Origin: an uncultured SAR116 cluster alpha proteobacterium
Lineage (GTDB): Bacteria > Pseudomonadota > Alphaproteobacteria > Puniceispirillales > Puniceispirillaceae
Assembly (NCBI GenBank): GCA_902547925.1
Contig: CACCQD010000003.1
Coordinates: forward strand, 29,884-93,883
Direction: 5' to 3'
DNA length: 64,000 nt
The position numbers and the translations under genes are program-made. Below the pieces are notes generated by a model. It was given only the letters and a program-made list of their open reading frames with translations, had not been told where the DNA came from and searched no databases. This document shows positions 15,851 to 46,668 of this stretch, piece after piece (position 1 is the first letter of the stretch; each line of letters opens with the position of its first letter).

Positions 15851-16104
15851 TAGAAATTCTCCCTTTAGAGATTGATCAACACAAATGTTGAGTAGAACTC
15901 TTAGACCCAATTGAATTTAAATGTTAGTAATTAGTTGCATTCTGAACACTATTTCTGAAGTGTGTGTTGTATATTTGCAACAAAACAACGAACAGTGGGT
16001 TAAGCAAAGGCTTTTACATATGTTTTTGCCAGATAAAACTGGGCTATATGAGGCCTAACTACCGCTAATAATGTAATTTGTCACATTTCGAAAATGGTCA
16101 TAAA

Positions 16105-17133
16105 ATGAAAATCGATGAACTTCTACAAAACAAATACTGGATGCCCAGCAACCTAAATTTTAATGACATGCTTTTTGAGGAGATTTCTGAACACACCCTA
16201 AAAGACTCACCTTTCCTTGACAGCCGGGCCGTTGGTAAGACTGGTAGAACAATTAAAATCCCAATCAGCCATTTGTTGGAGAAAAGACATGCAATCTCTC
16301 CTCAGGGATATTTGAATCATATTTTCCATATTTCTCACGTTGGATCTACATTTGTTGCGAGATTATTTGACACATTTTTCGAAGTAGATGTTTTTCGAGA
16401 ACCAACTATTTTCAAAGGCATAGCATTTTTATGCCGTGAGGCTCAAGATGGTGTGACACCATTTAGTGCTGAAGAGCTCTCTGTTTTATATGATTTAATA
16501 TGTCGGCTCTTAATGAGAGGTAAAAAAAATGCTATTGTAAAGCATTCAAGCCAGAACTTAATTATTCCAGATTTTGCCGAAACTACTGAAAGTGAGCCTA
16601 AACCAGTTTTGTTTATTTACACTTCGCTAATAAATTTTTTGTGCCATGGCTTATCTTCTTCAGGTGCACAATGGGATGCTATGAACGGAGCTGATGCGCG
16701 GATCAAATTTTTTAATCAAGTTTCTACACTCGATACAGTGGCACTTGTGACATTGAGCAAAATACAACTCATTGCACTTATTTGGGTTGTTGAAATGATC
16801 AAGATTTTGAACAGATTTGATGAGAGACGTGGTGACGAGCTATTTAATTTCGACAAAGTTTTGGAGACCCAGGATAGAATTTCTATAGTTGACAGCCTCT
16901 CAAAGACATTTCATCTACCCATTTCGATTTCCAATTCAACAGATATTAAAAGCGCTAATGTGTGGGAAACAAACTCCAAAGGACTTTCTCTGGGTGGCTT
17001 TGAAAAAAGGAAACAGAATATTGAAAAAACTGCTGTGGAACAAAACGACCTAATATCTGAGGGGATTGAATGGGTCCACAGTCTTTGCAATCGAAACGTC
17101 ATGTTTAGATCGCTATCTCAATACATAGAATAG
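16105..17133 (+). CDS. Sulfotransferase-like protein (divergent)
   Basis: HIFHISHVGSTFVARLFDTFFEVDVFREPTIF resembles the 5'-PSB loop region of bacterial sulfotransferase-like proteins; next to a clear TPR-sulfotransferase. Confidence 0.45.
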   Translation: MKIDELLQNKYWMPSNLNFNDMLFEEISEHTLKDSPFLDSRAVGKTGRTIKIPISHLLEKRHAISPQGYLNHIFHISHVGSTFVARLFDTFFEVDVFREPTIFKGIAFLCREAQDGVTPFSAEELSVLYDLICRLLMRGKKNAIVKHSSQNLIIPDFAETTESEPKPVLFIYTSLINFLCHGLSSSGAQWDAMNGADARIKFFNQVSTLDTVALVTLSKIQLIALIWVVEMIKILNRFDERRGDELFNFDKVLETQDRISIVDSLSKTFHLPISISNSTDIKSANVWETNSKGLSLGGFEKRKQNIEKTAVEQNDLISEGIEWVHSLCNRNVMFRSLSQYIE

Positions 17134-19082: not shown

Positions 19083-19853
19083 TTAAATTTTCAATGTTGC
19101 CTTACCCTTTTTCAAAAGTTGGGATGGATTTGGTATAGTAGCAGTTGCCTTGTCCTTCCTCTGAAAAATTAAATTCCAAGCAATTGTTATGCGTTCCTCA
19201 TCTGTTTCATTAGGGTACACCGAATGTAATAGCGTAGATGGAAAGACGATCATGTCACCCTCGTTCGGGCGTAGTGAAATTTTTGGAGCAAATGCATTAG
19301 TGTTTAACTCTCGAAAGATGTGGTGATCAAATCTCGAGTTTACAAATTCAATCATGCCACTTTCGCCACTAACCACAGAGGGTTGTTTGACATAATAAAC
19401 ACCAGATAGGTGAAATCTACCATGAGTATGAATAGCGTTGTAACCACCTCTCTTATTTATATTTACCCATGCGTTTGCTTCAAAAGTATAATCAGCTAAA
19501 TCAATGTCAGAACCTACTTTTTTTACATATATAGCAGCTGCCTTTGGGAACATTGCTGATATCTCAGAAAATCCAGGTTCTGGCCTGGACAACAACCCGT
19601 CTGGGGAGTGCCAACTGTCACCTTTGTTTGACACATTAATACCTTGCGCAGTTTTGCGCCACAAACGAGCTTCCGACGAAATTTTCTTGTTTAGATTTTT
19701 ATACCCAGGAACCTGGAGCTTTAATATTGGACAAGAGAAAACATGATCTAGATCGACAAGCTTTAATTGTTCCATGATATTCTCCATTAAGTTCAGTCTA
19801 CGTGAGATAGCAAAGCATTGAAAGTACCGATGCGTTTTGCAAACCACTGGCAT
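19083..19853 (-). CDS. 2OG-Fe(II) oxygenase-like protein (TIGR02466-type)
   Basis: YNAIHTHGRFHLSGVYYVKQP...GDMIVFPSTLLHSVYPNETDEERITIAWNL; cupin-like His motifs. The likely start is an internal ATG (MENIMEQLKLVDL...). Confidence 0.7.
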   Translation of the reverse strand: MPVVCKTHRYFQCFAISRRLNLMENIMEQLKLVDLDHVFSCPILKLQVPGYKNLNKKISSEARLWRKTAQGINVSNKGDSWHSPDGLLSRPEPGFSEISAMFPKAAAIYVKKVGSDIDLADYTFEANAWVNINKRGGYNAIHTHGRFHLSGVYYVKQPSVVSGESGMIEFVNSRFDHHIFRELNTNAFAPKISLRPNEGDMIVFPSTLLHSVYPNETDEERITIAWNLIFQRKDKATATIPNPSQLLKKGKATLKI

Positions 19854-21723: not shown

Positions 21724-22542
21724 TTGCAGAAAAACCATATTAGGTTTTTGCAATTTGGTTTATGCGGTTATTCTGGTCTTTCTTTAGAGCCTCCATGTAT
21801 TGAGTTGCTTATGAAAATGCAAGGTTTGTTAAATGATGTGGTCCGGGATTCGTCAATAAATGCGCGGCTGTTGATCGCTGATGATGACGCTTTTCTGAGG
21901 ACCACATTGCGGCAGCAGCTGGCAAGTGAGGGGTTCAATGAAGTCGTTGAAGCCTCAACCCTGCTTGAGGTTTTCGACAAACTGCCAGACGCCAACCCGG
22001 ATCTGATCCTTTTGGATGCTTGTCTTCAAGATGGAAATGGTGTGGAAATCTGTCGAAAACTGCGTGAGTGCGGCTTTACCAAGCCGATTGTCATGCTTGC
22101 GGGACAGAATTCAGAGGATGATATTGTCGCTGGCCTTGAGGCGGGCGCGAATGATTATATTGTCAAGCCGATGCGCATGGGCGAATTGCTGGCAAGGGTT
22201 CGCTCGCAACTCTGGCAGCACAAGGCCTCTGACACGGTAAGATTCTCGATATCCGGCCTCAGCTTTGTTCCCGCAAATAAATTGCTGAAATCGGTGGACG
22301 ACAGCAAGAAGGTCATCCTCACGGAAAAAGAGGCGACGATACTGAAATATCTCTATCGGGCGCACCCTGCCGGTGTGACGAAGGAAGAGCTGTTAACAGA
22401 AGTCTGGGGTTTCCAGACAGGGTTGAGCACACATACTGTTGAGACACATATTTACCGCCTGCGCCAAAAAATCCGCCGTATCTGCAAAAAGCCGGTCATT
22501 CTTACAACCCAGACAGGCTATTCACTGGCATCTGTTCCCTGA
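21724..22542 (+). CDS. OmpR/PhoB-type response regulator (no adjacent kinase)
   Basis: LLIADDDAFLRTTLRQQL; PDLILLDACLQDGNG; GANDYIVKPMRMGELLARVRSQL; winged-helix HTVETHIYRLRQKI. The start may be downstream of 21724. Confidence 0.9.
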   Translation: MQKNHIRFLQFGLCGYSGLSLEPPCIELLMKMQGLLNDVVRDSSINARLLIADDDAFLRTTLRQQLASEGFNEVVEASTLLEVFDKLPDANPDLILLDACLQDGNGVEICRKLRECGFTKPIVMLAGQNSEDDIVAGLEAGANDYIVKPMRMGELLARVRSQLWQHKASDTVRFSISGLSFVPANKLLKSVDDSKKVILTEKEATILKYLYRAHPAGVTKEELLTEVWGFQTGLSTHTVETHIYRLRQKIRRICKKPVILTTQTGYSLASVP

Positions 22543-22595: not shown

Positions 22596-22670
22596 TGGCT
22601 GGGGCGGTAGGATTCGAACCTACGATACACGATACCAAAAACCGATGCCTTACCACTTGGCCACGCCCCA
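22596..22670 (-). tRNA. tRNA-Gln (anticodon TTG)
   Basis: TGGGGCGTGGCCAAGTGGTAAGGCATCGGTTTTTGGTATCGTGTATCGTAGGTTCGAATCCTACCGCCCCAGCCA; cloverleaf arms and encoded CCA visible. Confidence 0.95.
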
Positions 22671-22735: not shown

Positions 22736-24886
22736 TCAGTTGATTTTGTAAACTCGGTAATGGGGATAGGCATCGATCAGTGGGGTAAAGTGATCCGGGT
22801 TGAAATCACCGTGATAGAATAGCCTGTTGAAGGTTGAATGATACAGTCGCGGATGGATTAGTTGGTCCGACCAGACCCTTCCGCCAAGTCGGTTGAACTG
22901 CAGATAAAAGCCGCTCGGGTTCGGGTAATCAATGCTGGCACCACGCCTGCCATCATCGGTCTGCACCGCGCCTGAAAGCACGGCCCTGCCATCAACCGTT
23001 CCTTCCTGTAGATTGTAGCGCCTACCACTGCAGTTGATCAGCGCGCCATTTCCATTGCAGGCAAGATCACTATAAAAGAGCTGGTTTGAGCCACGGTGGA
23101 CGGGCAGTGCTGTGCCGGTCTCGCTATCCCACAGACCAAGCGCGGTGATGGATGGCATCCATTGCGACATTTTATTGGTAAGGACAAGGTAGATATCCAA
23201 TCTGTCATTCGTTGGGCCGCGCAAAAAGGCCGCGGCAAGGGCGGCGTTACTGGCACTGTTCTGCGCAACGCCGTCGGTGCCATCATTGCCAATAAATTTG
23301 AGAATTCGTGCGCTTTCACCCTGATCGCGGGACATCAGCGCGCGCGCCAGAAGATGGGTCTGGGGTCCGCGCTGCGTTCCGCCATCGATAAGGGTGGGGA
23401 GCTTGCTGAACAGGCTGGCCGTGTAGCCGTAATCCCACCAGGTTGCAATTACAGGCTGGCGTTTATTTTCGGTTTGGCGCGCATAGTAACCTAAATACCT
23501 GAATCCCTCAACGACTTCGCGGGAAAAGGCGGTGTCTGGAACATAAGGTTTTGACAGCGGATTGAATGAGACAAAATAGGTTGTCGTAAGCATGACAAAG
23601 GCAAGACATGCCTGCACCCCGGCAAATCCCGTTGAGGGCGTTGTGATATTTCTCTGTATCAGACGACAAACAACATATCTGCCAGAGGTCAGCGCAAACC
23701 AGGCAAGGCCAAACCAGAATACCGGTGCAGCAAAGAAAACAACACGGTTGCCAAAAACAGTATTCATCGCTGCAAGGCAGATTGCCGGAATGAAGATTAT
23801 GGCAAAAACTGGCGAGACACAGACCCACCCTGCAATCCCAAGAATGGCAAGGCCCCCAAGCCAGACATTTCCCACCAAAGCACTCAGAAACTCGCCGGCT
23901 GAGAGAACTTCCAATTCGGCAATAGCGTCAAAAGTGTTTGGCAGCTTCATTTGGCCGAAAGAGGTGATTGTGGCCGTGAATTCACTGACATAAACGGAGG
24001 GCCCAAAATTGAGAGTGCTGATCAAGGCAAGATAGACCACGCCCAACAGGGCTGTGCGCGTCAATGACCGGCTGAAACAATAGGTAAGCCAGACAAGGCC
24101 AAGCAAATAAAACCAATTTAGAATGGGTTTTGGCCACCACCAATGAAACAGGTGCGTAACCGCCGCCGCCGCGCCACAAAGCATTAACGCCAGCCAGATG
24201 TTTTTTACCCTGCCTGCCCCTATAATCAGGGCAATGATCAGATAGAAAAATCCGAGATTGAGTTGGTCAGTGTCCAGTCTCCCTGCTGAGGTGCGCCCAA
24301 GAAAAGCGCTGGACAGTGAGCTGCCAAGCGCGGCGATGGCGCCTTCATTCCAAAAGCCAGCGGCACCGAAAGCAAGAATGACCGCTAAAGCCGTTAACAT
24401 CACAGAAATCGGAAGCAATCTGTGCGCCGTCATCGAGAGGGATTCGAGTGATGCGTTGGGAGACAGATAACTGATGAAAACGCCTAACAGCGGTTCATCT
24501 AGGATCGAACGTTCCAGTTCTGGCACATTATCAATAGAATCAGGATAGCTGCGGTACCGTGATAGATCTTTACTGGTGCCGTGAGTTTTGATTTCCTGCG
24601 CCACCAGAAGGAAATAGGCGGCATCAGTTGTCGAATAGGCCGGAAAACCCTCTACGTAATAGATATCCTGTGCATCACTCCACTGGTCATATTGCCAGAC
24701 CCGCATATGTGCGGATGCAAACAGGGCAAGACAAATCAAAACTGCGCTGGTGACATGGATTATTCGATGTCCAGACACCACGAGCCATGGCCTGTCCATG
24801 ACATGCCGGTGCCAAGAGAGCAGCCTTTCCAGATGTCCGCGATTAAACAAGTGGCGCGCCCTCACAAAAATCAAACATTGGCCCAA
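22736..24886 (-). CDS. STT3/PglB-like oligosaccharyltransferase
   Basis: 716 aa multi-TM protein; AYSTTDAAYFLLVAQEI in the first loop (compare the STNDGY region of PglB); IATWWDYGYTASLFSKLPTLIDGGTQRGPQTHLLARALM has the diagnostic WWDYG motif (codons at 23426-23440). Confidence 0.85.
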   Translation of the reverse strand: MGQCLIFVRARHLFNRGHLERLLSWHRHVMDRPWLVVSGHRIIHVTSAVLICLALFASAHMRVWQYDQWSDAQDIYYVEGFPAYSTTDAAYFLLVAQEIKTHGTSKDLSRYRSYPDSIDNVPELERSILDEPLLGVFISYLSPNASLESLSMTAHRLLPISVMLTALAVILAFGAAGFWNEGAIAALGSSLSSAFLGRTSAGRLDTDQLNLGFFYLIIALIIGAGRVKNIWLALMLCGAAAAVTHLFHWWWPKPILNWFYLLGLVWLTYCFSRSLTRTALLGVVYLALISTLNFGPSVYVSEFTATITSFGQMKLPNTFDAIAELEVLSAGEFLSALVGNVWLGGLAILGIAGWVCVSPVFAIIFIPAICLAAMNTVFGNRVVFFAAPVFWFGLAWFALTSGRYVVCRLIQRNITTPSTGFAGVQACLAFVMLTTTYFVSFNPLSKPYVPDTAFSREVVEGFRYLGYYARQTENKRQPVIATWWDYGYTASLFSKLPTLIDGGTQRGPQTHLLARALMSRDQGESARILKFIGNDGTDGVAQNSASNAALAAAFLRGPTNDRLDIYLVLTNKMSQWMPSITALGLWDSETGTALPVHRGSNQLFYSDLACNGNGALINCSGRRYNLQEGTVDGRAVLSGAVQTDDGRRGASIDYPNPSGFYLQFNRLGGRVWSDQLIHPRLYHSTFNRLFYHGDFNPDHFTPLIDAYPHYRVYKIN

Positions 24887-24943: not shown

Positions 24944-25816
24944 CTATATAATCCTCGTTGCAACCGCCCAGATCTTTTTCGCAAGAAGCTGGCTGGCCGC
25001 TGCCTCACAGGCGGTGTGTGAGGAGTAAATGGCAAAACAAGTCGCGCCACTACCCGACATGCCAACGGTGTCCGCACCCTCCTGTCCTGCCAGAGTGGTG
25101 AGCAGGGTTCCGATCTCGGGCATCAACTGACAAGCAGGTGTTTGGAGATCATTGCCATATCGCGCCAGTTCAGACGGGGTTGCACCATCTGGAGGAAGGT
25201 GTGAGGCAAGTCGGTCTCCGGTCATGCCAGCATCTGTTAGGGACTTGAAAACATCGCCTGTTGCCAGCGCTTTGCCGGAATTGGCAAGCAGGATGGAGCC
25301 GGCATTTTTAACATCTAATGGCGAGATGATTTCACCTATACCGCTCATATGTGCGGATGTCATGTTCAGGCAAACTGGCACATCCGCTCCCAATTGGAGT
25401 GCCAATCCATAGAGTGCATCAGGCGAAAGAGGTGTTGTTGCATGTTGGTTGAGGTGGCGTAGCAACGCCGCAGCATCGCTAGAACCACCACCAAGACCAG
25501 CACCAACTGGAATGTTTTTTTCAATCACAATTTTTAGAGGCTCAACGACCCCACCTGCCTGCCGGAACTTGCCCAAACAGGAAGCGCAGATATTACCGCC
25601 GCCGTCTTTGACGAGGTCACCCGCAAAAGGGCCGCTCAGGCAAATTTCATCCGCCGCGGCACGGTTAATGGTGATCCTGTCACCAAATTCAGTGAACACG
25701 ACACCGGACACAAGCGTGTGGTACCCATCAGTGCGCTTGCCGGTAATACGCAGAAAAAGATTGATCTTGGCAGCAGCATGGAGCGAGGCGGGAAACATAA
25801 GATCTTTGGCTGTCAT
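24944..25816 (-). CDS. ispE: 4-diphosphocytidyl-2-C-methyl-D-erythritol kinase
   Basis: AAKINLFLRITGKRTDGYHTL; IPVGAGLGGGSSDAAALLRHLN (GHMP); VGMSGSGATCFAIY. Confidence 0.95.
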   Translation of the reverse strand: MTAKDLMFPASLHAAAKINLFLRITGKRTDGYHTLVSGVVFTEFGDRITINRAAADEICLSGPFAGDLVKDGGGNICASCLGKFRQAGGVVEPLKIVIEKNIPVGAGLGGGSSDAAALLRHLNQHATTPLSPDALYGLALQLGADVPVCLNMTSAHMSGIGEIISPLDVKNAGSILLANSGKALATGDVFKSLTDAGMTGDRLASHLPPDGATPSELARYGNDLQTPACQLMPEIGTLLTTLAGQEGADTVGMSGSGATCFAIYSSHTACEAAASQLLAKKIWAVATRII

Positions 25817-34880: not shown

Positions 34881-36170
34881 ATGGTATCGTCACTTCAATC
34901 AACTCAACAGGTTGCACAGATTCGTCACCGTGCAGGGCGGCGGCAACTGGTGAATATTGGCCGAATGTTGTTGTCGCTATTTTGTCTTGTTGCTTTTGAA
35001 ACAATCCTCTCATTGCTTTTGGAAGGCCGCTATCTGCTCAGTGCCTCTGACACGATCAGAGTGTCAGCGCTGCTGATCACGGGCATTTACCTGATTATAT
35101 TTCTAGTTGCCTTGCGTCTCTCAAGATGGATACGCTTTCGCATTGGGGAACAGCTTTTGTCAGTGTGGTTGATTTTAGGCCTTGCCGGCACGCTCGGCTT
35201 GATGATGTTTCGCCTTCCTTACTCGGTTACGTTCCTGGGTTTGATTTACCCAACGGCAACCGTTATTCTGTTGCTGTTTGCCAAAGGACTCTCACAACGC
35301 TCAAGCATGCGTCTTGGGGTGCCGGCGCGGTTAATCGACCAGATTGACAACAGTACCGGTGCGTTCGTTCCTATGGACAGCGCATCGCTTCCAGAAGACG
35401 CAATCGATGCAGTGCTTGTTTCAGAAGAGCAACTGTCCGACTCGGGTTGGACGCCCTTTCTGTCTTGGTGTGCGCTGAATGCTGTACCCGTAATCATGCT
35501 TCGTGATTACATCGAAGCAGAAACAGGCTGTGTGGATCTAAAAAATTTTACCTTCACCGAACTTTTGCATGTCCGGTCGTCTGATACTTATTTGTTTGTA
35601 AAACGGGTGTTTGATGCAGTGTGCAGCCTGCTACTCTTGTTCGTTTTTAGCATTCCAATGGCTCTGGTGGTGGTGGTGATCAAGCTTGAAACCACTGGCC
35701 CGGCCATTTTTGCACAGCAACGTATTGGTCTGGGGGGTGTATCCTTTACCATGTATAAATTCAGATCGATGGTGACCGATGCTGAAAGAGGTGGTGCACA
35801 ATTTGCCGCCACGGGTGACAAACGTGTGACGCGTGTCGGTAAATTTATCAGAAAATACCGGATTGATGAATTACCACAGCTTTGCAATGTGTTGCGTGGC
35901 GATATGAGCCTGATTGGGCCGCGCCCTGAACAAAAAAATTTGCTCGATGAGCTTGTCAAAGAGATCCCGCTTTTTCCTTTCCGCCATTCAGTAAGGCCTG
36001 GAATTACGGGGTGGGCACAGGTTTGTCAGGGATATGCCTATGATGTCGACAGTAGCAGTGAGAAAATCACCTACGATCTGTTCTACATCAAAAATCTGTC
36101 TTTTCTGCTTGATATGACGATCATTGTCCGCACGATCAGGATTATGCTCACAGGCTTTGGGTCGCGTTAA
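34881..36170 (+). CDS. Polyprenyl-phosphate sugar-1-phosphate transferase (exopolysaccharide initiation type)
   Basis: KRVFDAVCSLLLLFVFSIPMALVVVVIKLETTGPAIFAQQRIGLGGVSFTMYKFRSMVTDAE; RIDELPQLCNVLRGDMSLIGPRPE. Confidence 0.93.
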   Translation: MVSSLQSTQQVAQIRHRAGRRQLVNIGRMLLSLFCLVAFETILSLLLEGRYLLSASDTIRVSALLITGIYLIIFLVALRLSRWIRFRIGEQLLSVWLILGLAGTLGLMMFRLPYSVTFLGLIYPTATVILLLFAKGLSQRSSMRLGVPARLIDQIDNSTGAFVPMDSASLPEDAIDAVLVSEEQLSDSGWTPFLSWCALNAVPVIMLRDYIEAETGCVDLKNFTFTELLHVRSSDTYLFVKRVFDAVCSLLLLFVFSIPMALVVVVIKLETTGPAIFAQQRIGLGGVSFTMYKFRSMVTDAERGGAQFAATGDKRVTRVGKFIRKYRIDELPQLCNVLRGDMSLIGPRPEQKNLLDELVKEIPLFPFRHSVRPGITGWAQVCQGYAYDVDSSSEKITYDLFYIKNLSFLLDMTIIVRTIRIMLTGFGSR

Positions 36171-39038: not shown

Positions 39039-40424
39039 TTAGCCAAAGGACCAGCTGAGACCGGCACCAGCTAACGCGGCCTCAATCTGCGATATGAGCT
39101 GTTTCAGAGCTTCTGGGCTGTCAGCCTCGGCCCGCGCGACCAACGCGGCTTCGGTGTTTGACGCACGAACCAGCCACCACCCGGTGGAACAAGTCACGCG
39201 GACTCCATCAATGGTGTTGATGGCATCTGCCTCATAATTTTGTGAGACGATTGATTGAAGTTTTTCCATCATAGAGAATTTTCTGCCATCTGTGCAGTCG
39301 ATCCGCAATTCCGGTGTTGCATGCTGGTCTGGCAAGCTGTCCATAAAGGCGGTGATGGATTGGCCGCTGCGAACCATTTGGGTAAGGATGCGCAACGCAA
39401 CGTAAATGGCATCGTCAAAACCAAAGTAATCATCGGCAATGAATATGTGGCCAGACATTTCACCGGCCAGGGGTGATCCTGTTTCAGCCATTTTCTTCTT
39501 CATATGGCTATGTCCAGTTTTCCATATTGCGGCGTTTGCCCCTGCAGCAGATAGCATGTCCACTGCCAACTGTGATGATTTCACATCAAGCAGCATCGTT
39601 CCACCCGGGTGTCGCTTGGCAACATCTTGGGCAAGGTAAGCTGTCAGAAGATCGCCCGGCACCTGCCGACCCTTGGCGTCTATGATACCAATCCGATCGC
39701 CATCTCCGTCAAAGCCAATTCCTAGATCGGCATCTTTTGATTTGACGGCTGCTCGCAGAATTTCGAGTGTTTTGGGATCCACCGGATTGGGGTGATGGTT
39801 GGGAAAGCTGCCGTCAATCTCAGAAAACAGAACTTCATGCTGTCCCGTCAGCCGCTCGACCACAGCATCGGTTACCGACCCGCTGGCACCATTGCCGCAA
39901 TCCCAGACAACCGACAGATCGCCAGCGTCAGCGGATTGTAAAAGTCTGGTTACATATTCGTTGAAAACTGATCGGGTCTCGCAGCCGCCACCACTTTGCG
40001 AGGGAACCCCTGCAGCGCATGAGGCACCGAGCTCAGTGATCTCTGCACCAAAAAATGATTTTCCACCCATCACCATTTTAAAACCGTTATGTGTCGGGGG
40101 GTTGTGGCTACCGGTCACCTGGATTGCTCCATCGGCATCAAGATGTGTTGCGGCAAAATACAACATCGGTGTTGGCCCACAGCCGATATCTGTCACCGTT
40201 GCGCCGCCATCAACCAATCCGTCAATCAGCGCTTTAGAGAGTTGTGGGGATGAGAGGCGACCATCACGCCCAACAACCACTTTATTTCCAAGAGACTTAC
40301 TGGCAAGGCAAGCGGCAAAGGTGCGGCCAATTGCTGTGGCGTCTGCGGGGCTGAGGGTTTCATCACAAATGCCACGGATGTCATAGGCACGAAGGATGCT
40401 GGGATGAAGAACATTAGCGTTCAT
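39039..40424 (-). CDS. Phosphomannomutase/phosphoglucomutase
   Basis: LRAYDIRGICDETLSPADATAIGRTFA; AIQVTGSHNPPTHNGFKM (active Ser); LGIGFDGDGDRIGIID. Confidence 0.94.
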   Translation of the reverse strand: MNANVLHPSILRAYDIRGICDETLSPADATAIGRTFAACLASKSLGNKVVVGRDGRLSSPQLSKALIDGLVDGGATVTDIGCGPTPMLYFAATHLDADGAIQVTGSHNPPTHNGFKMVMGGKSFFGAEITELGASCAAGVPSQSGGGCETRSVFNEYVTRLLQSADAGDLSVVWDCGNGASGSVTDAVVERLTGQHEVLFSEIDGSFPNHHPNPVDPKTLEILRAAVKSKDADLGIGFDGDGDRIGIIDAKGRQVPGDLLTAYLAQDVAKRHPGGTMLLDVKSSQLAVDMLSAAGANAAIWKTGHSHMKKKMAETGSPLAGEMSGHIFIADDYFGFDDAIYVALRILTQMVRSGQSITAFMDSLPDQHATPELRIDCTDGRKFSMMEKLQSIVSQNYEADAINTIDGVRVTCSTGWWLVRASNTEAALVARAEADSPEALKQLISQIEAALAGAGLSWSFG

Positions 40425-41275
40425 GAAAAACGATCCTTCATCCAGCTTCGCAGATCAGGTGCAAGCGTCTCATTCGCCATGGCAAAGGCAATATTTGCCT
40501 GCAGAAACCCCATTTTTGAGCCGCAGTCAAACCGTTCTCCAGAAAACCGCAATGCGTAGAAATCAGATTTTCCAATTTGTTGGGCAAGCGCATCTGTCAG
40601 CTGGATTTCATCACCGGCACCACGCTCGCCGTTGGACAGAGTCTGGAATATTGCCGGGTCGATTATGTAGCGGCCGACGACAGCAATGTTCGATGGCGCG
40701 TCTTCGGGTCTTGGTTTTTCCACAAGGCCTGTGACCTCGACAAGTTTGCCGTCATCAGCACCCGGTGTGATGATTCCGTAGGCATGGGTCTGGTCTTTTG
40801 GCACATTCATTGCCGCGACCATATTGCCGCCACGGTAACAATCTGCCATTTCTGCAATACAGCTGTGACCAAGGATCAGATCGTCCGCCAACAATATGGC
40901 CACTGGTTCATCATGGACCATGTTGCGGGCGCACCAGACGGCATGCCCCAGACCCGCAGGATCCTGTTGTCTGACATAGCTCACTGATCCCGGTTTGTGA
41001 ATCATGTCATGCACTATGGCAAGTGCATCAGTTTTGCCTTTGGCGATAAGTGTCTTTTCCAACTCATAGGAGTGATCGAAATGGTCTTCGATGGCGCTTT
41101 TGTTCCGTCCTGTTACAAAAATGAATTCTTCTACACCGGCCTCGGCAGCCTCTTCAACGGCATATTGAATCAGAGGTTTGTCCACAACGGGAAGCATTTC
41201 CTTGGGCAGGGCCTTGGTCGCAGGTAAAAATCTGGTACCCAGGCCACCAACAGGAAAAATGGCTTTTTTGATCAT
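40421..41275 (-). CDS. galU: UTP--glucose-1-phosphate uridylyltransferase
   Basis: KKAIFPVGGLGTRFLPATKALPKEMLPVVDKPLIQYAVEEA. Confidence 0.96.
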   Translation of the reverse strand: MIKKAIFPVGGLGTRFLPATKALPKEMLPVVDKPLIQYAVEEAAEAGVEEFIFVTGRNKSAIEDHFDHSYELEKTLIAKGKTDALAIVHDMIHKPGSVSYVRQQDPAGLGHAVWCARNMVHDEPVAILLADDLILGHSCIAEMADCYRGGNMVAAMNVPKDQTHAYGIITPGADDGKLVEVTGLVEKPRPEDAPSNIAVVGRYIIDPAIFQTLSNGERGAGDEIQLTDALAQQIGKSDFYALRFSGERFDCGSKMGFLQANIAFAMANETLAPDLRSWMKDRFS

Positions 41276-41371
41276 CGGACAACCTTCAATAGAGAGCAAA
41301 TAGTTTGGCTATTGATAAACATGGAGTACCGCCCCATAAAGAGATGGTCAAGTAACAGCAGGTGACAAAGG

Positions 41372-41962
41372 GTGGGATCGATGTCCGCACAAGCAATCTC
41401 CAACATTTTGACCCAATCCGCCGCTGTCAAATTGGCTACGGCTGAACAATGTAGCTCTGCGGCCTTCGCGGCAAGCCAAATGATCGCAACAGCGTTTCAG
41501 AGCGGGGGCAAATTGATGCTCTGCGGAAATGGTGGCTCCGCTGGTGATGCGCAACATTTGGCAGCAGAATTTGTTGCTACCCTTGACCACCAGCGGCCAC
41601 GTGCGGGACTCGCTGCGATCGCCTTGACTACGGACACCTCATTTATCACGGCCTATGCCAACGATTTTGGCTTTGATGGCATTTTTTCACGCCAAGTGGA
41701 AACGCTTGGCAGGACGGAAGATGTTCTGATTGGCATTTCAACCAGTGGAAATTCGAAAAATGTTGTTGGCGCAATGCAGGTAGCGCGTGCCGCAGGCATT
41801 GGCACGATTGCCTTTAGCGGCGAGGCAGGCGGTGAGATCTGCAGCCACGCCGACATCGCTATCTGTGTTCCCAGTCGAAAAATAATGTATGTTCAAGAAG
41901 CCCATATAGCGCTTGGCCACGTCATCACACTCACCGTTGAACAAATTCTTGGTCATCAGTGA
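41372..41962 (+). CDS. gmhA: Phosphoheptose isomerase-like SIS protein
   Basis: GGKLMLCGNGGSAGDAQHLAAEFV; LIGISTSGNSKNVVGAM; VQEAHIALGHVI. Confidence 0.88.
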   Translation: MGSMSAQAISNILTQSAAVKLATAEQCSSAAFAASQMIATAFQSGGKLMLCGNGGSAGDAQHLAAEFVATLDHQRPRAGLAAIALTTDTSFITAYANDFGFDGIFSRQVETLGRTEDVLIGISTSGNSKNVVGAMQVARAAGIGTIAFSGEAGGEICSHADIAICVPSRKIMYVQEAHIALGHVITLTVEQILGHQ

Positions 41963-42025
41963 TATGGTGCGAAAAGGCACAGGCATGGCGGTAACATCAA
42001 TCATTGGTCAGCAAAGGACGGCAAA

Positions 42026-43330
42026 GTGAAGATCGCGATAGTTGGTACCGGTTATGTTGGATTAGTGTCTGGCGCGTGTTTTTCAGAATTTGGCTTTGAT
42101 GTCACCTGTATCGACAATGATGCTGAAAAAATTGCAAAAATTGGTGATGGCATGATGCCGATTTATGAGCCGGGATTGGAGGATTTGGTTGCGCGCAATG
42201 TCGAAGCCGGCAGGCTGCATTTTTCCACCGACATTGGCCCGGCTGTGGCAGCAGCGGATGCCGTCTTCATTGCTGTTGGCACCCCCACGCGCCGTGGTGA
42301 TGGGCACGCCGATCTTACCTATGTCTATGCGGTAGCTGAGGAGGTTGCCGCCTATCTGACTGGCTATACTGTTTTGGTCACCAAATCGACAGTTCCTGTT
42401 GGCACGGGCCGAGAGGTAAGCGCAATTATCCGCCAAGCCAATCCCAACGCGGATTTTGACATTGCCTCAAACCCGGAGTTTCTGCGTGAAGGCGCGGCGA
42501 TTGGTGATTTCATGCGGCCCGACCGGGTGGTGGTTGGCGCCGAAACTGACCGCGCTAGGGAGGTCATGCGGGCGCTGTACCGCCCCCTTTTTCTGATCGA
42601 GACTCCAATCATGTTTACCGGCCTAGAGACATCAGAGCTGATCAAATATGCGGGCAATGCCTTTCTTGCTGTCAAAATTTCCTACATCAACCAGATGGCA
42701 GATTTGTGTGAGGTGGTCGGCGCGAATGTGCATGATGTTGCCAAGGGCATCGGCCTTGATAAACGTATCGGCAGCAAATTTCTTCACCCGGGACCGGGAT
42801 ATGGTGGATCATGTTTCCCCAAGGACACTCTGGCCCTTGTCAGGACTGCACAGGACCATGATGTCCGCATAGGCATCGTCAATGAAGTTGTTGGCTATAA
42901 CGACGCGCGCAAACAATCAATGTCGCGGCGGGTTAGCGATGTAATGGGTGGCGAGGTTAAGGGCAAGACCATCGCGATATTGGGTCTCGCCTTCAAGCCG
43001 GAAACAGACGACATGCGGGACAGCCCATCATTGGATATCATCTCACACCTTTTGGCCGCGGGCGCAAACATCAGTGCCTATGATCCAAAGGCCATGGATG
43101 AAGCAAAGCATCTCTTGCCAGAAACTGTCCATTTTACGAACAGCGCGGAGGATTGCATTACTGATGCCGATGCTGTTGTTTTGGTTACCGAATGGAATGA
43201 ATTTCGGGCCTTGACCCCGGAGCGATATCTAGCCGCAATGAAGGGCAGGGTCATGGTTGATTTGCGCAATATCTATGCGCCAGAGGAAATGACAGATGCC
43301 GGGCTGCGTTATAGCTCAATCGGTCGTTAG
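42026..43330 (+). CDS. ugd: UDP-glucose 6-dehydrogenase
   Basis: MKIAIVGTGYVGLVSGACFSEFGFDVTCIDND; GPGYGGSCFPKDTLAL; GLAFKPETDDMRDSPS. Confidence 0.97.
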   Translation: MKIAIVGTGYVGLVSGACFSEFGFDVTCIDNDAEKIAKIGDGMMPIYEPGLEDLVARNVEAGRLHFSTDIGPAVAAADAVFIAVGTPTRRGDGHADLTYVYAVAEEVAAYLTGYTVLVTKSTVPVGTGREVSAIIRQANPNADFDIASNPEFLREGAAIGDFMRPDRVVVGAETDRAREVMRALYRPLFLIETPIMFTGLETSELIKYAGNAFLAVKISYINQMADLCEVVGANVHDVAKGIGLDKRIGSKFLHPGPGYGGSCFPKDTLALVRTAQDHDVRIGIVNEVVGYNDARKQSMSRRVSDVMGGEVKGKTIAILGLAFKPETDDMRDSPSLDIISHLLAAGANISAYDPKAMDEAKHLLPETVHFTNSAEDCITDADAVVLVTEWNEFRALTPERYLAAMKGRVMVDLRNIYAPEEMTDAGLRYSSIGR

Positions 43331-44643: not shown

Positions 44644-46668
44644 ATGAACGCTGACCAATTTATACGAAAAGCAATGTTGTTATCTAAAAAAGGTGAGACA
44701 GCAAAAGCGTTGGCATTATTTAGAGAAGTGCTAATCAAATTCCCCTCAAACAAGAGAGCCCAAGATGGTATCCGTAAACTATTTGTTAATTTAGATCATG
44801 AGCAAATGTCTCACCCTCCAAAAGCTGCGATTGATGAAATCATTGATTGCCACAACCGTAACGAATTCATGTTTGCTATCAAAAGATCTGAATACTTGCT
44901 CGAGAGTTTCCCGTATTCATTCTTTCTGTGGAATTTGCTGGGGGTGTTGTACAAAAAAACCGGAGAAAAAAGAAAATCTTCAGATGCTTATAAAATTGCT
45001 TTGCAAATCAACCCCAATTATGCGGAGGCACATTTTAATTTTGGCAATTCACTTATTCTTGAGGGTTTGATTGAAGAAGCGGAAAAAGCATTTGTAAAAG
45101 CCGCTGAACTTCAGCCAAAAAACGCCAAAATTTTCTTCAATTTAGCCTATGTTAACAACGAAAAAGGCAACACTGAAAAATCTGAAAATTATCTCAAAAT
45201 ATCATTAGAACTCGATGAAAATTATGCTGAGGCCCTGCATTTATTAGCTCAGATTTACCGTAAAAAAGGCCACGCCAAACTGGCGTTAAGCAAGTTCGAA
45301 AAATGTATACGCTTAAAACTAGATTATGCCGAAGCATATAATAATATGAGCAATGTTCTGTGGGAGTTGGGTAGATCAGAAGAGGCCATTGAAGCTCTTG
45401 AGAAAGCGGTGGGGCTACAGCCCAACTTGTTTGGCGCAGCTAGCAAAAAAGCATACTTCATCGCTAGTAAAAACACCTTTGGAAATCAAAACTACCTAAA
45501 ATCGCTGGTTCAACTTAATGAAAGCATCAAAAAAACAAATCCGAAACAGTTTACAGACTGGCAGAAAAAATCACCAGATGGATGTTTGAGAGTAGGTTTT
45601 GTATCGGCAGATTTTCGGGACCATCCGGTTGGGTACTTTTTAGAGAATTTGTTAAAAGAAATAAATCTAGAGAAATTGGAATTAATGGCCTTCAGTAATT
45701 CGGAAAAAGAAACAGAATTGACTTCTAGAATTAAACCATTTTTTCAGAAATGGCATTCTATCTTTGAGATTAGGGATGAAGAAGCAGCTGAACTGATTTA
45801 TCACACAGCGCCTGATATTTTGATTGATTTATCGGGCCACACTGGTGGAAATAGATTACCTATGTTTTTTCTCAAGCCGGCACCAATTCAAGCAACGTGG
45901 CTTGGTTATTTTGCTTCTACAGGTATAGAAACCATCGACTTCATAATAGGTGATCAGTTTGTGACTCCACATTTTGCCAGTGATGAATTTACAGAAAAAA
46001 TCATACGAATGCCCAGGGCATATTGTTGCTTCTCAGCGCCCGATCTTGAACTAGAGGTCACCGAGAGCCCCGCTGTCAACAAACGGGGCATCACCTTTGG
46101 CTGCTTAAACAGAGCAGATAAATTATCAAGAGAACTGATCAAGGTGTGGAGTAAAATCTTGAAACAAGTCGTGGACTCGTCAATGTATTTTCGGGGTGCT
46201 GGTTACGATAAACCCATTAAAGATATAATAATCAATGATTTTGAGAAAAATGGCGTGAAAAGAGATCGTTTGTTTTTCGCTGAAAAAACAAATCGCAAAG
46301 ATTTTCTCGCTTCGTACAATAATGTGGACATTTGCCTCGATACTTTTCCCTATCCGGGCGGAACCTCTACATGTGAGGCCTTGTGGATGGGGGTTCCAAT
46401 TATCACAAAAAAAGGGGCGAATTTTCTTTCAAGGGTTGGTGAGACTATAGCAAATAATTCTGGAAATGAGAATTTTTGTGCAAAGAATGAAGAGGAATAC
46501 ATCTCATTTGCAGTGCAATTGACAAAAGATATACCGATGCTGAATAAACTTAGGATGGAAAGACGAGAAAAAACGTTAAACAGTCCCTTGTTTGATGCAA
46601 AGCTGTTCGCTTCTGATTTTGAAAAACTGTTATTTAAAATGTATCAAACAAAAAAAGAGAAGAGTTGA
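44644..46668 (+). CDS. TPR-containing O-GlcNAc transferase-like glycosyltransferase (GT41/SPINDLY type)
   Basis: TPRs then LRVGFVSADFRDHPVGYFLENLLKEI; DILIDLSGHTGGNRLPMFFLKPAPIQATWLGYFASTGIETIDFIIGD; DICLDTFPYPGGTSTCEALWMGVPIIT. Confidence 0.92.
   Translation: MNADQFIRKAMLLSKKGETAKALALFREVLIKFPSNKRAQDGIRKLFVNLDHEQMSHPPKAAIDEIIDCHNRNEFMFAIKRSEYLLESFPYSFFLWNLLGVLYKKTGEKRKSSDAYKIALQINPNYAEAHFNFGNSLILEGLIEEAEKAFVKAAELQPKNAKIFFNLAYVNNEKGNTEKSENYLKISLELDENYAEALHLLAQIYRKKGHAKLALSKFEKCIRLKLDYAEAYNNMSNVLWELGRSEEAIEALEKAVGLQPNLFGAASKKAYFIASKNTFGNQNYLKSLVQLNESIKKTNPKQFTDWQKKSPDGCLRVGFVSADFRDHPVGYFLENLLKEINLEKLELMAFSNSEKETELTSRIKPFFQKWHSIFEIRDEEAAELIYHTAPDILIDLSGHTGGNRLPMFFLKPAPIQATWLGYFASTGIETIDFIIGDQFVTPHFASDEFTEKIIRMPRAYCCFSAPDLELEVTESPAVNKRGITFGCLNRADKLSRELIKVWSKILKQVVDSSMYFRGAGYDKPIKDIIINDFEKNGVKRDRLFFAEKTNRKDFLASYNNVDICLDTFPYPGGTSTCEALWMGVPIITKKGANFLSRVGETIANNSGNENFCAKNEEEYISFAVQLTKDIPMLNKLRMERREKTLNSPLFDAKLFASDFEKLLFKMYQTKKEKS

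Follow-up and report, generated by a model that had tools for sequence, protein, structure and literature searches.

Identification of an STT3/PglB-type oligosaccharyltransferase gene in SAR116

The window, i.e., the whole analysed stretch of 64,000 nucleotides, carries at 22736–24886 of the minus strand a gene which, as judged from profile searches and a structural model, is an STT3/PglB-type oligosaccharyltransferase (OST). Its product is very probably a single-subunit inner-membrane N-OST that was ancestral to SAR116 and was lost in many members of the group, with a donor that is probably O-antigen-like, and it most likely N-glycosylates exported proteins in the periplasm. Homology, predicted fold, the conserved catalytic set, ancestry, selection and gene linkages are backed directly by the data presented below.

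The open reading frame is open and exact and encodes 716 aa from a TTG start, although the start codon is uncertain, as congener sequences would also permit translation to begin ~11 residues later. The single Pfam family matched was PF21436 (STT3-PglB_core; 1.5e-13, 51.9 bits against a cut-off of 23), whereas the match to the NCBIfam PglB equivalog ProtGlycPglB (NF050801; 8e-18, 64.3 bits) fell below its cut-off of 1300 bits. A search of the own genome with the PF02516 profile at 1e-3 found nothing. The top matches of a phmmer search of the PDB were C. lari PglB chains (3.6e-8), and a family profile recovered C. lari PglB at nearly full length (2.5e-39), with eukaryotic STT3 and archaeal AglB matched far more weakly.

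The AlphaFold (AF2) model of the protein (pLDDT 88.5, pTM 0.89) comprised a GT-C membrane domain and a periplasmic domain with the OST fold. The best solved structures in a Foldseek search of the model were the PglB ternary complexes 6gxc and 5ogl (E ~1e-23, TM 0.71–0.73), followed by eukaryotic STT3 and archaeal AglB (TM 0.5–0.57). These belong to the same superfamily and share the WWD motif, but they possess a DK motif (PMC7226087) in place of the bacterial MxxI/MxxW. The fold and the single-subunit architecture are shared with PglB of Campylobacter lari and C. jejuni (3RCE, 5OGL, 6GXC), even though the identity in the structural alignment is only ~17%. The OST identity proposed in the preliminary description was thus upheld by both the HMM search and the fold comparison, and the phylogeny did not place the protein among non-OST GT-C proteins. 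A non-OST GT-C protein was rejected because of structural matches far weaker than those of PglB (best DPY19, 9e-6).

Distribution and ancestry of the SAR116 OST

The host of the window is a SAR116 (Puniceispirillales) alphaproteobacterium represented by a MAG that is 57.6% complete. An alphaproteobacterial origin had been suggested earlier, and in agreement with it the nearest OST relatives in named genomes were found in SAR116 MAGs (90% for MED-G116 and 73% for AG-916-C06). OST matches were detected in 32 of the 61 genomes of Puniceispirillales, representing 14 of 17 genera. In a class-wide sample of 387 genomes only three matches were obtained, all from SAR116 (one in the genome of the window itself and the others in two relatives), and a phylum-wide sample gave an OST match in four genomes outside the class. 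The scan of named genomes also gave Thermodesulfobacteriota, Aquificota, Campylobacterota and single MAGs of other phyla.

In an OST tree of 87 rows, a branch supported by 100% SH-aLRT separated the SAR116 sequences from all others, and families f1, f2 and f3 each grouped together; the tree came from a quick search and is unrooted, and it contains flagged long branches outside this part. The sister group of SAR116 (99% SH-aLRT) consisted of OSTs from Desulfurellales/Hippea, a Myxococcota-labelled MAG and a Nitrospirota MAG (L033, L037, L039–L041 and L056).

The preliminary description had named a tRNA-Gln and ispE as neighbours of the gene, and both were found. The tRNA-Gln(ttg) gene (22596–22670, minus strand) flanks the conserved site, and conserved neighbours of the OST are the ispE-like GHMP kinase gene (24944–25816, minus strand) on one side and a response regulator gene (21724–22542, plus strand) on the other. 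The order YggS, RibA, response regulator, OST, IspE, TPR protein and ETF-QO is kept in f1, f3 and one genome of f2 (G060), while in another genome of f2 (G037) the OST adjoins YggS, a few genes from the usual site, and in other SAR116 genera it is found elsewhere in the genome. The response regulator adjoins IspE, with no OST between them, in the OST-negative genomes G002, G015, G025 and G040 (G002 has a 90-aa ORF there), and in OST-negative G017 a PF00180 dehydrogenase occupies the site. The SAR116 OST is best explained by inheritance within the order, with repeated losses and occasional relocation, since the single clade, its family structure, the shared syntenic site and the matches of the class-wide sample, confined to SAR116, all argue for an old, vertically inherited and repeatedly lost gene and not for contamination.

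In families f1 and f2, the syntenic neighbourhood of the OST also contains fast-evolving genes for TPR-sulfotransferases (PF13469; 17219–19027, plus strand, in the window; L109:5590–8940 and L124:1–2351). The TPR-sulfotransferase gene of the window adjoins a 351-aa ORF (16078–17133, plus strand) with no Pfam match at 1e-3 and 41% to 62% identity in congeners. A 2OG-Fe(II) oxygenase gene (PF13759) lies a few genes from the OST (19083–19853, minus strand) and also at L119:3962–4585; its homologue in G007 overlaps the OST start by 14 nt. The OST of G007 itself (L119:4572–6754) is split in two overlapping frames of 239 and 495 aa, reflecting a frameshift or an assembly error.

Catalytic residues and the acceptor pocket

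The STTD, AIAELEV and WWDYGY segments pointed out in the preliminary description are present in the 716-aa frame, and the catalytic Asp and Glu, D88 and E324, are in place in the model. In the HMM alignment, D88 (codon 24623–24625; all codons are on the minus strand) corresponds to D56 of C. lari PglB (ClPglB), located in the first external loop and contacting the metal and the acceptor Asn, in 20 of 20 SAR116 rows. R198 matches R147, and D205 and D207 of the GRLDTD segment (residues 202–207, 24266–24283) match D154 and D156 of the metal site. E324 (23915–23917) is the equivalent of E319 in the TIxE loop and R381 (23744–23746) that of the pyrophosphate-contacting R375. WWDYGY (483–488, 23423–23440) aligns with ClPglB 463–468, comprising the +2 Ser/Thr reader and Y468, which contacts the N-acetyl group. 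Roles of the residues in PglB catalysis and in acceptor and donor contact were taken from PMC7226087 and PMC6215017. Across 44 bacterial OSTs the columns of D88, D207, E324, R381, WWDYGY and D501 were invariant; WWDYG (483–487) occurred in 20 of 20 SAR116 rows. The gene is under purifying selection (omega ~0.16 against two congeners).

Three positions of the window OST differ from Campylobacter PglB. W576 of the MSQW segment (573–576, 23159–23170) stands at I572, a residue which in PglB touches the methyl of the +2 Thr. Trp was found here in all 20 SAR116 rows (MxxW instead of MxxI), in contrast to other bacteria, where the position is mostly Ile or Lys, and to the sister group, where it is Lys (Asn in L056). 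A336 (23879–23881) stands at R331, the residue pairing with the acidic −2 residue of the acceptor (PMC7226087, PMC4894442), although the −2 rule was found not to depend on Arg331 alone (PMC4894442). The position is Ala in the window's genus and variable in SAR116, with Arg in 6 of 20 rows. W251 (24134–24136) stands at Y196, which contacts the pyrophosphate (PMC6215017); it is Trp in the window's genus and in five other bacterial OSTs, and the remaining 17 SAR116 rows have Tyr.

Because Ala replaces Arg331, the alignment argues against a D/E-X-N-X-S/T sequon in the window's genus. As far as their published description allows a comparison, the SAR116 OSTs resemble the PglBs of Desulfovibrio with relaxed acceptor choice, some of which have no Arg331 equivalent (Ser in DdPglB, Tyr in DvPglB) and accept sites that lack an acidic −2 residue (PMC4894442). 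The Trp pocket may warrant the status of a variant once tested. Tentatively, the SAR116 OSTs could form a distinct N-OST subclass with a Trp in the +2 pocket, placing an O-antigen-type glycan on exported proteins and reading the acceptor unlike PglB, a proposal that we regard as somewhat less likely than not.

From these residues, a mechanism can be proposed in which D88, R198, D205, D207, E324 and R381 would bind the polyprenyl-diphosphate glycan and a divalent metal at the periplasmic face, and the WWD motif with the clade-specific Trp would read the Ser/Thr at +2 in an N-X-S/T site. The amide of the acceptor Asn would be activated between D88 and E324 and would then attack the first sugar; the transferred glycan would probably be an O-antigen-like lipid-linked glycan also made by these genomes. 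Activity, N-linkage, sequon and donor of the SAR116 OST are in this respect what we infer.

Gene linkages and the putative glycan donor

According to the preliminary description, the OST is not embedded in a pgl-like operon. This is true of the window genome, where the gene has housekeeping neighbours and, unlike Campylobacter pglB, lies outside any pgl operon; in some relatives, however, the OST is linked to genes for lipid-linked glycans. In six genomes (G006, G008, G014, G018, G022 and G027) the OST match has a UDP-sugar 4-epimerase gene at most 131 bp away, and in G020 the distance is 3.3 kb. Within 5 kb, the epimerase was present in 7 of 26 genomes and a Wzy_C protein in 4 of 26 (G005, G031, G035 and G020), with 0.14 expected by chance in each case; the P values of these linkages treat related genomes as independent and so overstate the case. 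The epimerase linkage occurs in at least two distinct arrangements (before or after the OST), and the enzyme is, by its sequence, a putative UDP-sugar 4-epimerase. In one genome (G027), genes for a WecA-like PF00953 transferase and a TviB-like dehydrogenase come after the OST gene, and in G010 the epimerase, WecA-like, Wzy_C and TviB-like homologues form one cluster apart from the OST. As relatives place the OST by 4-epimerase, Wzy_C or WecA-like genes, these linkages point to a putative O-antigen-like lipid-linked donor. Epimerase and Wzy_C genes occur also in genomes without the OST, as a shared polysaccharide would predict.

Alternative explanations

The OST could be active on another donor, namely a separate dedicated glycan, perhaps monophosphate-linked, begun by the phosphoglycosyltransferase (PGT) encoded at 34881 or by an unrecognised transferase, which we consider rather unlikely. 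The preliminary description had offered this PGT and sugar genes at 39–48 kb as donor candidates, and both are present: a PF02397 polyprenyl glycosylphosphotransferase (34881–36170, plus strand), and PGM/PMM, nucleotidyl transferase and UDP-glucose dehydrogenase genes for UDP-sugar supply (39039–43330). In four genomes of the window's genus, ~10.7 kb separates a PF02397 PGT from the OST; a distance statistic for PGTs, based on a list picked by hand, was set aside. In near-complete G003, the orthologue of the 34881 PGT is the only PF02397 match and no WecA-type match was found, so that the PGT stays a candidate initiator for this genus. Moreover, neither PF02397 nor WecA-type PF00953 was matched in three OST-positive genomes at least 90% complete (G006, G018 and G021). 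However, the 34881 gene best matches EPS_sugtrans/WcaJ-type models, and among the genomes of the order no significant co-occurrence of the OST was observed with PF02397, WecA-type PF00953 or either (Fisher P 0.29–0.78; PF00953 matches were sorted into MraY and WecA types by hand from match length). PGT presence thus does not track the OST and the 34881 PGT is a candidate donor source only, while linkage to the OST recurs for two genes of an O-antigen-type module, 4-epimerase and Wzy_C. A search for Wzx-type PF01943 gave few matches and was uninformative.

It appears quite improbable that the protein is a GT-C enzyme which diverged within the OST lineage and modifies lipid, polysaccharide or Ser/Thr instead of protein Asn. 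The low identity to PglB would be compatible with such a change of target, as would the Trp residues W576 and W251 at positions that contact substrates in PglB, but WWDYGY and the equivalents of E319, D56 and the metal-site residues are retained in all SAR116 rows and non-OST GT-C structures are far behind PglB. A null sequon test fits this possibility too: the frequency of N-X-S/T in predicted exported proteins differed in no consistent way between two OST-positive and two OST-negative one-contig genomes, with ~400 kb sampled per genome and signal peptides called by a rough heuristic. This test neither supports nor refutes OST activity. Least probable by far is a decayed, recently acquired foreign or contaminating gene. 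The incompleteness of the MAG, the patchy presence across the order and the split frame in G007 could be read in this way, but the gene occupies the same site in other genera and families, one-contig genomes included, its sequences form a single supported clade and omega is low. Contamination of the MAG was rejected on the basis of the conserved site and the single SAR116 clade.

A probable protein-glycosylation pathway in SAR116

Bacterial N-glycosylation with a lipid carrier was thought in a 2016 survey to be confined to delta- and epsilonproteobacteria (PMC4973528), and a 2015 OST screen adds a few aquificae (PMC4894442). No paper describing an OST from SAR116 or any other alphaproteobacterium came up in text searches of the open literature, and glycosylation goes unmentioned in two recent papers on SAR116 genomics. 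An undescribed protein-glycosylation pathway probably exists in SAR116, because an inherited and apparently intact OST is present there, an enzyme type assigned to other bacterial groups in published surveys. Regarding the general N-glycosylation suggested in the preliminary description, the identity of the enzyme held; the pathway is what we infer, with sequon frequencies of exported proteins bearing no imprint. The key enzyme of N-glycosylation here goes back to the ancestor of a marine order of Alphaproteobacteria that is abundant. If it is active, surface-exposed proteins of SAR116 would bear N-glycans, with relevance to phage recognition and grazing, and OSTs with a changed acceptor pocket could be used in glycoengineering.

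In the same window, the gene at 44644–46668 (plus strand) encodes a TPR protein with a GT41 domain (PF13844, 2e-47), which weakly matches the N-glucosyltransferase model NF049992 and lies beside an epimerase and a methyltransferase gene. Together with the adjoining genes, it could possibly represent a second, cytosolic protein glycosylation unit.
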